Origin: Rhizobium lusitanum
GTDB taxonomy: Bacteria > Pseudomonadota > Alphaproteobacteria > Rhizobiales > Rhizobiaceae
Assembly: GCF_014189535.1 (NCBI RefSeq)
Contig: NZ_CP050308.1
Location: 3,461,001-3,525,000, forward strand
Direction: 5' to 3'
Length of the DNA: 64,000 bases
Each line of letters begins with the position of its first letter. Within the stretch, counting starts at the first letter, position 1. Position numbers and translations under genes: made by a program. Shown here in pieces: positions 8,118-11,528 of this stretch. The notes below the pieces were generated by a model, which was given only the letters and a program-made list of their open reading frames with translations, had not been told where the DNA came from and did no database searches.

Positions 8118-8531
8118 ATGATGCAAACCGCCGCGAGGGAGCGGCTGGGACGCTATCTTGGCACATGGGACGTGAAGCGTCGGATCATCGACCGTCTCAA
8201 CGCGACCCTGATAACCTTCGAAGGACAGGCGTTGTTGACGCCTGTCCAGTTCGAGGAACATGGCGACACCACGAGCGAATATGCGACGCTCAGAAGCAGC
8301 CGAACTTACTGGCTAGGCTCTGAGGCTGAGTGTCTGAGCGTTTATTTCCCCGACCTGACTGAATTCATCCATATTGGCGGCGCTGCATCGCAGCGCGTCA
8401 TCCATCACTGTGGCCTGGATCTTTATCGAGGTCGCTTTTTCTTTCGCGGGCCGGACGCCTGGGCCGAGATGTGGCATGTGTACGGCCCTCGAAAACATTA
8501 TGTAAGTCTCGCCCATTATCGGCGGGTCTAG
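8118..8531 (+). CDS. DUF6314 family protein
   Basis: 137 residues with the DUF6314 pattern: LGTWDVKRRI near the N-terminus, a central FEGQA/YW stretch, HHCGLDLYRGRFFF and a C-terminal WHVYGPRKHYV. The fold is probably a small calycin-like beta-barrel that could bind a hydrophobic ligand; this is inferred from the pattern. It begins on the base after the msrA stop and shares a terminator with it, so it is the last gene of the methionine sulfoxide reductase operon. No enzymatic motif is apparent. Confidence 0.8.
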   Translation: MMQTAARERLGRYLGTWDVKRRIIDRLNATLITFEGQALLTPVQFEEHGDTTSEYATLRSSRTYWLGSEAECLSVYFPDLTEFIHIGGAASQRVIHHCGLDLYRGRFFFRGPDAWAEMWHVYGPRKHYVSLAHYRRV

Positions 8532-8549
8532 CCTCTCAGGGCGCGATGC

Positions 8550-8580
8550 GAGGCGGAGTATATCTCCGCCTCTCTTTTTC
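8550..8580 (+). terminator. Terminator of the msr operon
   Basis: Perfect 9-bp stem GAGGCGGAG (8550-8558)/CTCCGCCTC (8564-8572), loop TATAT, then TCTTTTTC. It lies 19 bases after the last gene and before the convergent aroG gene. Confidence 0.85.
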
Positions 8581-8616
8581 GATCATTCGCGGAACAATGG
8601 CGAATGATGTGAAGTC

Positions 8617-9678
8617 TTATCGGGACATCCGCCGTCTGGTCTGGACAGCCAGAGCCAATTCCTCCAGCGTACGGACGGAAGTCGGCCAATCGATGCAGCC
8701 GTCGGTGATGCTCTGGCCGTAGACCAGCGCCTTGCCGGGAACGAGGTCTTGGCGGCCACCGACGATATTGCTTTCCATCATCATGCCCTTGATGCGGTGG
8801 TCGCCGGCCGATACCTGTTCGGCGACGGAGCTGACCACTGCCGGTTGGTTTTCCGGGTTCTTGTTGCTGTTGGCGTGGCTGGCATCGATGATGATCTGCG
8901 GGTCGAGCCCAAGCTTGGAAGCCTGCTCCGAGACCGCCTGCACGCTGACGGCATCATAATTGGGCTGCTTGCCGCCGCGCAGGATGAGATGGCCGTCGTC
9001 GTTGCCGCGTGTCGAGGCAATGGCGGCAAGGCCATCCTTGGTTACGGCGGGGAAATGATGCGGTTGCGACGCCGCCAGGATCGCATCGAGCGCGATCCTC
9101 GTGTCGCCGTTGGTTCCGTTCTTGAAGCCGATCGGGCAGGAGAGGCCGGAGGCCAGTTCGCGATGCACCTGGCTCTCGGTTGTTCTGGCACCAATGGCCC
9201 CCCAGCTCACGAGGTCGGCGATGTATTGCGGCGTGATCGTGTCGAGGAATTCGCAACCGGCTGGCAATCCGATCTCGTTGACATCGACGAGAAGCTGCCT
9301 GGCAAGGCGCAATCCCTCTTCGATGCGGTAGCTTCCGTCGAGATGCGGATCGTTGATGAGGCCCTTCCAGCCGACCGTGGTGCGCGGCTTTTCGAAATAG
9401 ACCCGCATGACGATTTCAAGGTCGCCGGCGAAGCGGTCGCGCTGTTCCTTCAGTCGGGCTGCATAGTCGCGCGCCGCGACAGGGTCGTGGATGGAGCAGG
9501 GGCCGATGACCACGATCAAGCGATCGTCGTCATTGTGGAGGATACTATGCATAGCGGCGCGTGCGCCCGTCACGGTGGAGGTGACGGCCTCGTCTCGCGG
9601 GATCTCGTCTATAATGCGAGCCGGCGGCGTAAGCGCGGTAATTTCGATAATGCGCAAATCATCAGTAGAATTCAACAC
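8617..9678 (-). CDS. aroG: 3-deoxy-7-phosphoheptulonate (DAHP) synthase, class I
   Basis: First step of the shikimate pathway: phosphoenolpyruvate plus erythrose 4-phosphate to DAHP. Type I alpha (AroG/F/H) enzyme, with IGPCSIHD, EKPRTTVGWKG, GFKNGT and IDASHANSNK all present. I chose GTG 9678: AAAGGA lies 7-10 bases upstream, and from there the sequence aligns residue for residue with the start of E. coli AroG (both have DDLRI from residue 6), giving 353 residues. ATG 9702 is in frame but poorly preceded. An intrinsic terminator and a Phe/Tyr-rich leader peptide lie directly upstream (9716-9848), so expression is probably attenuated by charged tRNA-Phe/Tyr. Confidence 0.93.
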   Translation of the reverse strand: MLNSTDDLRIIEITALTPPARIIDEIPRDEAVTSTVTGARAAMHSILHNDDDRLIVVIGPCSIHDPVAARDYAARLKEQRDRFAGDLEIVMRVYFEKPRTTVGWKGLINDPHLDGSYRIEEGLRLARQLLVDVNEIGLPAGCEFLDTITPQYIADLVSWGAIGARTTESQVHRELASGLSCPIGFKNGTNGDTRIALDAILAASQPHHFPAVTKDGLAAIASTRGNDDGHLILRGGKQPNYDAVSVQAVSEQASKLGLDPQIIIDASHANSNKNPENQPAVVSSVAEQVSAGDHRIKGMMMESNIVGGRQDLVPGKALVYGQSITDGCIDWPTSVRTLEELALAVQTRRRMSR

Positions 9679-9715
9679 GGTATCTGTTCCTTTTGGGGTC
9701 ATACCGTGGCGACAC

Positions 9716-9744
9716 AAAAAAAGCCGCCAGGTAGACTAGCGGCT
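9716..9744 (-). terminator. Attenuator terminator in the aroG leader
   Basis: On the minus strand AGCCGC pairs with GCGGCT (plus positions 9739-9744 and 9722-9727), with an 11-base loop and seven T. It lies about 40 bases before the aroG start and 30 bases after the leader-peptide stop. An intrinsic terminator between promoter and gene fits premature termination control. Its 5' arm (CCGCU) is complementary to AGCGG at 9792-9796 in the leader, a possible antiterminator pairing. Confidence 0.8.
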
Positions 9745-9773
9745 GTTCGGGTCTTTTATTGCGTCAGTTTTAC

Positions 9774-9848
9774 CTACGCACAGGCCCGCCTCCGCTGGGA
9801 GCAGCGGTACGAATAAAATCGCGAGGCGTTTGCGTAGGTGAACGACAT
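9774..9848 (-). CDS. Phe/Tyr-rich leader peptide of aroG
   Basis: A 24-codon open frame, ATG 9848 to TAG 9774, with Phe3, Tyr5, Phe11, Tyr12 and Tyr14: five aromatic residues in the first 14, including F-Y-S-Y. Within it ACCTACGCA (9831-9839) pairs with TGCGTAGGT (9772-9780), and CCGCTG pairs with CAGCGG (9792-9807). Stalling at codons 11-14 would cover the 5' arms of both and free AGCGG to pair with the terminator arm; smooth translation would let the terminator form. This is the layout of a classical attenuator, inferred from sequence only. The ribosome binding site is weak (AGAGA). Confidence 0.7.
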   Translation of the reverse strand: MSFTYANASRFYSYRCSQRRRACA

Positions 9849-9973
9849 GCAGTGTCTCTACGACAAAAAATATGGCTTGTCGATGCCGTTGATAGCTTGG
9901 GAACTGATCGCAGGTGCTTGGCCCGGCTCCCAATTTGGTGGCAGTAGCAAAAAGACGAACCCCAGATCAGAAA

Positions 9974-10007
9974 GACTGGCCCCACTTCGCTGGAAGCAGG
10001 ACCAGTC
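9974..10007 (-). terminator. Probable terminator of the porin gene
   Basis: A 9-bp stem GACTGGCCC (9974-9982)/GGACCAGTC (9999-10007) encloses a second stem CTTC/GAAG with symmetric CA bulges. On the minus strand it is followed by TTTCTGATC. It lies about 50 bases beyond the porin stop. The rest of 9849-10055 shows only the unassigned aroG promoter. Confidence 0.5.
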
Positions 10008-10055
10008 CCCATCCGATCAGGGGTCAAGTCTAATCAGATCTCGAAAAACGAGGTC

Positions 10056-11144
10056 TTAGAAAGTACGCTGGAAGCGCAGAACGCCAGCCCACTGGTCCTG
10101 ATTGATGGAGTCCCAGTTGGTGTAGGATACTTCCGGCGTGATCTGCAGGTTCTTGACCGGGTTGAACTTGACGTTCGCGGTCGCTGCAAAGATCTTCGAG
10201 TCGGTGTAGGCAACCTGAGCGTTTGCCTGCAGCTTTTCGTTGATCGGAACGGTAACGCCGCCCCAGACAGCCCAGTCGCCCCAGCCGATCGGCTTTGCCG
10301 GGCCGGCGCCGTTCGAGCTTGCGTACTTGTTCAGCTTGTTGCCGTCGGTGTTCCAGCCGCCCATCAAGAACGCCTTGAAGACGCCGAAATCGCCGTCGAC
10401 GCGAGCCTTGATAGCGCCTTCTTCAACGATGGAGTCGTAACCGCCAACGATCTTGAAGCCGAAGTTGCCAGCCTTGTAGCCAACACCGGCGACAACGTCA
10501 GGAGCGTAGTGATCCGAGGCGTCTTCGCCGTTGAGGCCCCTGACCGGAACGGTCGCGCCGGCGCTGTTCGTGGTGAGGCCCGAATTGCTGTCTTCCAGCG
10601 AGATTACAGCCGTGAAGCCGTTGCCGGCGTCGTAGTTGTAGGTGATCTGGTTGAGTTCGTACGGGCCGTCATAGACAACGTCGTCGTTGATGACGCCGCC
10701 GGCATAGCCTGCGTACAGGTTGTAGGCCGAGTCGAGCTTACCGACGGTGAAGCCGGCGAGGCTGATGTTGGCAGCGATCAGCTTGGTGGTGGTCGAGCCG
10801 CCATCCTGCCAGTCCCAACGCAGAACGGTAGCTGTCTTCAGCGGGCCGTATTCGGTGTCGGAAGCGGTGTCGAGGGTGAGGTGAGCACGGGTGTGCCACA
10901 GCGTACCGTAACGGTCAGCCGGGTTGTAAGCATTGTACCACTTGCCTTCGGTGCGGACGTAGCCGCCGATCTTGAGGCAGGTTTCGGTACCCGGAATGAA
11001 GAAGTAACCGTTGCCGTATGCGTCGCAGATGCGGACATACTCAAGCGGCTCCGGCTCGGCGGCAACGATAGCATCGGCTGCATGAGCGCCGGAAACTGCT
11101 GCGAGGGCAGCAGCGGAGCCGAGAAGAAGGCTCTTGATGTTCAT
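10056..11144 (-). CDS. ropA: Outer-membrane porin (Rhizobiales porin family, RopA type)
   Basis: A 362-residue trimeric beta-barrel porin of the alphaproteobacterial porin family. The signal peptide is MNIKSLLLGSAAALAAVSGA-HAAD, cleaved after AHA. The early mature part shows the family marks YVRICDAYGNGYFFIPG and CLKIGGYVR, with two cysteines (in RICDAY and ETCLKIGG) that can form a disulfide. The protein ends in phenylalanine (FQRTF), the usual signal for barrel assembly. Start ATG 11144 follows a weak GGAG. The codon choice is strongly biased, as in highly expressed genes. A long untranslated region upstream suggests regulation. The exact paralogue name is uncertain. Confidence 0.92.
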   Translation of the reverse strand: MNIKSLLLGSAAALAAVSGAHAADAIVAAEPEPLEYVRICDAYGNGYFFIPGTETCLKIGGYVRTEGKWYNAYNPADRYGTLWHTRAHLTLDTASDTEYGPLKTATVLRWDWQDGGSTTTKLIAANISLAGFTVGKLDSAYNLYAGYAGGVINDDVVYDGPYELNQITYNYDAGNGFTAVISLEDSNSGLTTNSAGATVPVRGLNGEDASDHYAPDVVAGVGYKAGNFGFKIVGGYDSIVEEGAIKARVDGDFGVFKAFLMGGWNTDGNKLNKYASSNGAGPAKPIGWGDWAVWGGVTVPINEKLQANAQVAYTDSKIFAATANVKFNPVKNLQITPEVSYTNWDSINQDQWAGVLRFQRTF

Positions 11145-11528
11145 AAAAACTCCAATCCAATATAGATTGGGCATAGGCTATCGCGCCGAAAAATCGACGT
11201 GCCTCACCCTATCCCTGTTAAAAACCCCGACTCGGGAGAAACGGGCCCCACCCGCTTCTGCGCCCCATTAAAGACGAATTCCTGCAAAGTTATATGATAT
11301 ATTTTCTTCGAAATGACGTTTTCGTGATTTTTCATTTTTAGTTGCATGAAAGACACATTTGCAAACATAGATAGTAAGTTTGCCATAATATTGGCTGCGT
11401 AATGATCATGCCGACGTAGGAAAGTGGGAAAATAGCAATGCGTGGGATGCTATGTCCAAACGCAATCAACGCCCTTTGCCGACATCGGCAACGGGCGTCT
11501 AAGTGCGATTAAGAGGAGGGACGGTCGC
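11145..11528. other. Porin upstream region, no gene
   Basis: It holds the porin promoter and leader. GCAAAC (11361-11366)/GTTTGC (11378-11383) form an inverted repeat with an 11-base spacer, and GCCATAATATTGGC (11382-11395) is a near-palindrome; either could bind a regulator. A stem at 11469-11498 (ACGCCC-T-TTGCCG/CGGCAA-C-GGGCGT, one mismatch, loop ACAT) lies after the stop of the next gene and may be its terminator, though it lacks a T-run. No credible open frame is present. Confidence 0.45.

Follow-up and report, generated by a model that had tools for sequence, protein, structure and literature searches.

A probable ribosome-mediated transcription attenuator precedes the DAHP synthase gene aroG in Rhizobium lusitanum and related proteobacteria

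Transcription of the aroG gene of Rhizobium lusitanum is very probably attenuated through a translating ribosome, as in the trp and phe systems, a reading to which we give a probability of about 0.9. The element lies on the minus strand of the window, the whole 64,000-nucleotide stretch of DNA analyzed here, and had been described in an initial annotation as an apparent attenuator with a leader peptide rich in phenylalanine and tyrosine. In the direction of transcription, a −35-like hexamer, 17 nt, a −10-like hexamer and a further 6 nt are followed by the leader ATG (9848), the leader TAG (9774), a spacer, a terminator with its U7 tract and the GTG start of aroG (9678) (Table 1). The leader frame of 24 codons, read directly from the minus strand (9848..9774) as MSFTYANASRFYSYRCSQRRRACA followed by TAG, carries Phe3, Tyr5, Phe11, Tyr12 and Tyr14, as originally described, and the pairings proposed at the same time (ACCUACGCA with UGCGUAGGU, CCGCUG with CAGCGG, and AGCGG with CCGCU) are all present in the sequence. 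The terminator had been placed correctly ahead of aroG together with its U7 tract (9722..9716), but its hairpin, AGCCGCUAG-UCUAC-CUGGCGGCU (9744..9722), has a stem of 9 bp around a 5-nt loop and not the 6-bp stem given at first. The UGCGU segment at 9776..9780, a strand of the third antiterminator helix, has UACGCA as an additional partner when the leader is folded without a ribosome.

Table 1. Features of the proposed aroG attenuator and its surroundings (window coordinates)
Feature	Position	Strand	Basis or remark
−35-like hexamer TCGACA	9878..9883	minus	Putative promoter; kept in near relatives
−10-like hexamer TAGAGA	9855..9860	minus	Ends 6 nt 5' of leader ATG; leaderless start predicted
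Leader ORF, 24 codons + TAG	9774..9848	minus	Sequence and conservation
Control codons TTT TAT TCG TAC (codons 11-14)	9807..9818	minus	Footprint folding, leader comparison
Protector hairpin CCGCUG-CUCC-CAGCGG	9792..9807	minus	Alignment of 52 leaders
AGCGG, antiterminator 5' strand; partner CCGCU 9742-9738	9792..9796	minus	Pairing comparison
CGGG, second antiterminator helix; partner CCCG 9751-9748	9785..9788	minus	Pairing comparison
UGCGU, third antiterminator helix; partner ACGCA 9764-9760	9776..9780	minus	Folding, pairing comparison
ACCUACGCA, outer stem 5' strand; partner UGCGUAGGU 9780-9772	9831..9839	minus	Folding; conserved only in part
Intrinsic terminator hairpin, 9 bp, 5-nt loop	9722..9744	minus	Alignment and terminator scan
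U7 tract	9716..9722	minus	Sequence
aroG, type I DAHP synthase, 353 aa	8617..9678	minus	TIGR00034; GTG start picked by eye

The leader folds with −53.6 kcal/mol against −37.1 kcal/mol for 200 dinucleotide shuffles, all of which it beats (z −4.8). Its best 8-codon window holds three aromatic residues, a number equaled by 30% of shuffled upstream regions, and the two terminator-like sites found in 8400..10200 compare with 1.6 in shuffles, which is chance level for a lone site. Since the R. lusitanum sequence by itself is thus unconvincing, the case for an attenuator rests on conservation. Directly upstream of the leader and in the same orientation lies a gene that looks porin-like by eye (window 10056-11174, minus strand), to which no NCBIfam family was assigned; a terminator-like inverted repeat noticed by eye after this gene is absent from the list of the terminator scan.

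Conservation within the genus was examined with a covariance model built from an alignment, A2, of 52 leaders (49 distinct), 51 of them from the genus and one (L131) from another genus of the family. The model matched one copy each in 115 of 148 genus genomes. In every case the match shares contig and strand with aroG and lies directly 5' of it, as established by comparing the 115 element matches with the aroG matches row by row and by eye. Part of these matches arise by construction because the model was built from some of these genomes; genomes with leaders outside the alignment match it as well. The search used Infernal's stricter filters, with which weak matches could be missed, and gave no hit in genus genomes lacking an aroG match. 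The element is missing from four of the 119 aroG-bearing genomes (G063, G064, G145 and G144). In G063 (locus L126), G064 and G145, aroG is interrupted by a TAA and no attenuator match is found, a loss pattern that looks as if leader and gene decay together; G032 has a TGA inside aroG and keeps the element. Between two subclades, the third positions of leader codons 10-25 are 89% identical (465 sequence pairs), as opposed to 56% for the third positions of same-amino-acid codons in the part of aroG covered (434 pairs), and the leader peptide is strongly conserved from codon 10 on in the genus. The initial annotation had proposed a comparison with relatives, and this comparison, run in part, found that the aromatic codons are conserved, as are both the hairpin and the terminator; it supports the attenuator reading, under which a response to starvation would be expected.

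Two other explanations bear directly on this distribution. The small number of aromatic residues in the R. lusitanum leader would fit an ordinary, weak and unregulated terminator accompanied by chance aromatic codons, but the presence of the element in 115 of the 119 aroG-bearing genus genomes and in distant relatives leaves this explanation practically negligible. Alternatively, the leader could be a free-standing small-protein or sRNA gene that ends at a terminator of its own, and unattenuated aroG transcripts would arise by read-through or at a separate aroG promoter. PMC7298713, PMC7143759 and PMC10117765 describe the attenuator products rnTrpL and peTrpL as able to act alone in S. meliloti. 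Such a gene is very unlikely here, since the element was found solely before aroG in the genus search and the leader stop lies 84-98 nt upstream of aroG in 52 of the 52 loci measured; moreover, a role in trans would be compatible with attenuation.

Leaders of the same kind were also found well beyond the genus. Among 163 loci with enough upstream sequence, which are related to one another and not independent, a short ORF with at least four aromatics in eight codons was present in 131, compared with 7.1% of shuffles; at least five were reached by 92 loci (0.74% of shuffles) and at least six by 56 (0.06%). In a genome-contig set, 63 of 79 scored loci reached at least four aromatics (L073, the remaining one of 80, was too short), or 61 when L029 and L072, which are off-pattern by eye, are set aside. 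At an AroG identity of at least 63%, this level was reached by 58 of 60 loci (57 without the off-pattern L029), the exceptions being L042 and L074, as compared with 5 of 19 loci at lower identity, the off-pattern L072 included. Examples come from Burkholderia (MSAKFYFYFFWYLRPLADREG), Xanthomonas (MNANRSFYFWYYGFPMPLAEEGVRSP), Bradyrhizobium (MITVATSYFWYFSYDSSLAAGGSRSI) and Devosia (MNLRAAYSYWYFTTGSRWQPKGRV). Seven other aroG loci of the class were checked over 260 nt, and five have a leader of the same kind; L166 and L168 have none in this span, and both show a terminator-like repeat farther upstream. The attenuator and aroG may travel together. A glycine riboswitch (RF00504) was observed near aroG in [Pseudomonas] boreopolis (L024:4448-4538, minus strand).

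For analysis of codon content and folding, 109 distinct leaders were taken from loci that scored at least four aromatics or belong to the Rhizobium group, with identical peptides counted once. L029, L126, L072 and L165 were dropped by eye, and four leaders in which the script found no terminator (L048, L060, L062 and L069) were left out. The nine-codon span ending at the last control aromatic contains both Phe and Tyr codons in all 109 leaders and a Trp codon too in 63 (10 of 35 in the Rhizobium group and 53 of 74 in the others). Codon 13 varies within A2 (TCG in 36, TGG in 12, TAT or TAC in 4), so that input from Trp seems to be intermittent. Phe codon 11 is TTT throughout A2. More generally, TTT accounts for 36 of 55 Phe codons in whole leaders of the Rhizobium group versus 8 of 127 in aroG, and for 184 of 229 versus 62 of 436 in other lineages, the aroG counts being based on whichever part of the gene each locus holds. 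This excess over the TTC of aroG may reflect either slower decoding or an unstructured U-rich stretch.

Among the A2 leaders, 99.3% of the cells of the protector hairpin are paired, and two of its pairs show changes on both sides; in the terminator, 100% of cells are paired and a single pair shows such changes. With the outer stem included in the structure, 11 cells are changed on both sides, which none of 500 shuffles equaled, and three pairs are, which 13 of 500 equaled; when the partners were slid by −2, two pairs and 10 cells were still changed on both sides. Because most of these changes trace to a single divergent group, made up of the four leaders L118, L124, L125 and L127, they represent few events. 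The three antiterminator helices are paired in 98.4, 98.5 and 91.8% of cells with one cell changed on both sides, and antiterminator pairs overall show no excess over shuffles (96.1% versus 96.0%). AGCGG/CCGCU, the sole antiterminator part that is exclusive with the terminator, comprises 5 bp in the Rhizobium group and hardly varies. Its complementarity in that group does not surpass what shuffling yields: only 1 of the 35 leaders scored better than its shuffles at p ≤ 0.02, with p 0.58 for the R. lusitanum leader, as compared with 27 of the 74 leaders from elsewhere. In the stalled state, the three-part antiterminator hairpin is calculated at about −20 kcal/mol versus −14.5 kcal/mol for the terminator (52 leaders). 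The outer 9-bp pairing of the initial annotation exists in the sequence but is kept only partly in the genus, its inner 6 bp being paired in 80% of cells with no both-side change, and it was rejected as a conserved core. An alternative register 6 nt downstream (UAYGC) is 92% paired, likewise without covariation. The outer stem may help the ribosome-free fold and is not a core part.

The predicted folding switch was calculated with a ribosome footprint that extended 15 nt to either side of the first base of the P-site codon and was kept unpaired, and with the RNA cut just past the 5' arm of the terminator. In the R. lusitanum leader, upstream pairing of this arm was 0.64, 0.67, 0.59 and 0.54 when codons 11, 12, 13 and 14 were placed in the A site, compared with 0.26 at codons 15-21, 0.33 at the stop and 0.26 without a ribosome. 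Over the 109 leaders, the mean was 0.68 on the aromatics versus 0.34 two to eight codons later, with the higher value on the aromatics in 107; the switch is absent from the predictions for L095 and L144. The observed difference of 0.343 was reached in none of 1000 random ribosome placements (0.106 ± 0.020), and shuffling the sequence before the terminator left a mean difference of 0.01 versus 0.33 in real leaders. Differences above 0.2 occurred in 86 of 109 leaders versus 9.2% of 327 shuffles. The positive controls from E. coli behaved in the same way, trpL giving 0.71 at Trp10-11 and 0.02 at the stop, and pheL 0.84 at Phe6-12, 0.64 at Phe14 and 0.12 at the stop. Among individual leaders, pairing with upstream sequence disappears at codons 13-14 in the variant L125, and L111 shows 0.65 at the stop. 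Mean pairing at the stop (0.47) and without a ribosome (0.49) lies above the 0.34 just past the aromatics, so the basal state is poorly reproduced in places. Upstream pairing forms without a ribosome in Burkholderia L041 (0.79) and several other lineages, and not in L030 (0.16) or the R. lusitanum leader; a protector hairpin therefore seems limited to some lineages.

Equilibrium folding of whole leaders was rejected as a test of the switch, being uninformative: the terminator wins on average in all states (means of 0.98 in Rhizobium and 0.92-0.94 in others), and with a stalled ribosome the antiterminator exceeded 0.3 in none of the 35 leaders of the Rhizobium group and in 4 of the 74 others. 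The terminator wins at equilibrium in E. coli trpL and pheL too. It follows that the mechanism must be cotranscriptional.

The strong RNA structure and the conserved nucleotides could belong to a riboswitch, a T-box or a protein-binding leader that senses an aromatic compound directly, with the short ORF incidental. We consider this most improbable, as the aromatic codons are kept across lineages with differing RNA and the predicted switch point tracks the last aromatic codon. In addition, Rfam (release 15), in which leader families such as Phe_leader and Trp_leader are named, matched the element at gathering level neither in the window nor in any of the 20 loci submitted; hits at E ≤ 10 (isrK, sroD and others), all weak and of sRNA or snoRNA type, were taken as chance.

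Where the leader transcript begins is suggested by the best-scoring promoter-like pair in the 80 nt 5' of the leader ATG (TCGACA-17 nt-TAGAGA), which ends 6 nt before the ATG and so puts the expected transcription start at the leader, upstream of the terminator; the pair is not listed by a stricter generic sigma-70 scan. The best pair ends 6-8 nt before the ATG in 26 of the 35 leaders of the Rhizobium group, in 25 of the 28 from other alphaproteobacteria and in 10 of the 45 scored from the remaining groups, as against 2.5-3.7% of mononucleotide shuffles. Groups were assigned by hand, and the last set still contains L059 and L079, both alphaproteobacterial. From the spacing, the leader mRNA of alphaproteobacteria is predicted to be leaderless.

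Under the proposed attenuation mechanism, RNA polymerase would start at or beside the leader AUG and a ribosome would translate the 24-codon leader. With plentiful Phe- and Tyr-tRNA, the ribosome would reach the stop, AGCGG would be either covered or sequestered in the CCGCUG/CAGCGG hairpin, and the terminator would form ahead of aroG. A shortage of charged Phe- or Tyr-tRNA would presumably make the ribosome stall at codons 11-14 and cover CCGCUG. The freed AGCGG could then start the long composite hairpin (AGCGG/CCGCU, CGGG/CCCG and UGCGU/ACGCA) that captures the terminator 5' arm, with read-through into aroG as the expected physiological response. Scarcity of Trp would likewise cause stalling in relatives with TGG among the control codons. 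There is also an outside chance that the terminated leader RNA (about 130 nt) and the peptide act in trans like rnTrpL and peTrpL, linking aromatic supply to other genes while one sensor integrates shortage of Phe, Tyr and, in many relatives, Trp.

The aroG product matches TIGR00034 (aroFGH) with 508 bits against a cut-off of 173. It scores 522 bits with the AroG equivalog NF006723, under the cut-off of 568, and 475 bits with an AroH subfamily, slightly over the cut-off of 463, so its feedback type is left unsettled by name; the nearest named aroG is that of R. tropici (85%). A protein search found aroG in 119 of 148 genus genomes, in groups of 84-100% and 72-78% identity plus one partial match. 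The gene is patchy elsewhere, occurring in 8 of 289 class genomes (R. lusitanum counted) and in 12 of 247 family genomes; the genus accounts for three of these 12, R. lusitanum included. A type II DAHP synthase is present in all 148 genus genomes, which makes AroG a second enzyme. In the R. lusitanum genome, the type II gene (G000:C5:607720-609029) matches PF01474 in two pieces that lie in different frames with a 13-base overlap (best E 3.7e-154), compared with best E-values of 1e-210 or below in the other 147. The split is either a real frameshift or an assembly error; if the frameshift is real, AroG would be the main DAHP synthase in this genome.

What is known of regulation at the entry to aromatic synthesis comes mainly from TyrR, TrpR and feedback inhibition in E. 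coli. The E. coli attenuators pheL-pheA and trpL-trpE each sense one amino acid and control a terminal branch. The aroG leaders share their logic and their switch in the footprint calculation, but what they would control is the entry enzyme, and they mix Phe and Tyr codons, often adding Trp. The closest known system is AroR-aroF of the actinobacterium Corynebacterium glutamicum. Passages of PMC4046766 describe a Phe-Tyr-Phe leader ahead of aroF, and passages of PMC11802643 attribute the name AroR to Neshat et al. 2014 and report stalling that answers Phe limitation and not Tyr availability. Compared by description only, and from those passages, AroR resembles the present element in placing an aromatic leader peptide before a DAHP synthase gene, and differs in that the proteobacterial leaders often have longer aromatic runs and often Trp. 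S. meliloti trpL, a leaderless leader ORF before trpE(G) according to passages of PMC10117765, belongs to a rhizobial attenuator too; for the aroG leader, a leaderless start is a prediction. Unlike the aroG leader, it concerns tryptophan and trpE(G), and activity in trans is reported for it in the passages of PMC7143759.

No aroG attenuator in proteobacteria was recognized among the matches listed from the open-license literature (titles, abstract starts and passages). Neshat et al. 2014 and the comparative study of proteobacterial attenuators by Vitreschak et al. 2004, cited in PMC10117765, may contain more. A tiling-array study of Rhizobium etli presented 49 putative cis-regulatory RNAs, and the terms aroG, aroF, heptonate and heptulosonate gave no hit in its main text (PMC2881028).

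As Rfam release 15 matched none of the loci tried, the element is probably unannotated in many genomes. Its significance lies in a single leader with codons for two or three end products before the first enzyme of the pathway, in alpha-, beta- and some gammaproteobacteria. Because codons for several end products stand ahead of the first enzyme, the idea of a sensor reporting that any aromatic is short is directly testable, and work on the aromatic pathway in rhizobia and related bacteria gains a natural control element in this leader.
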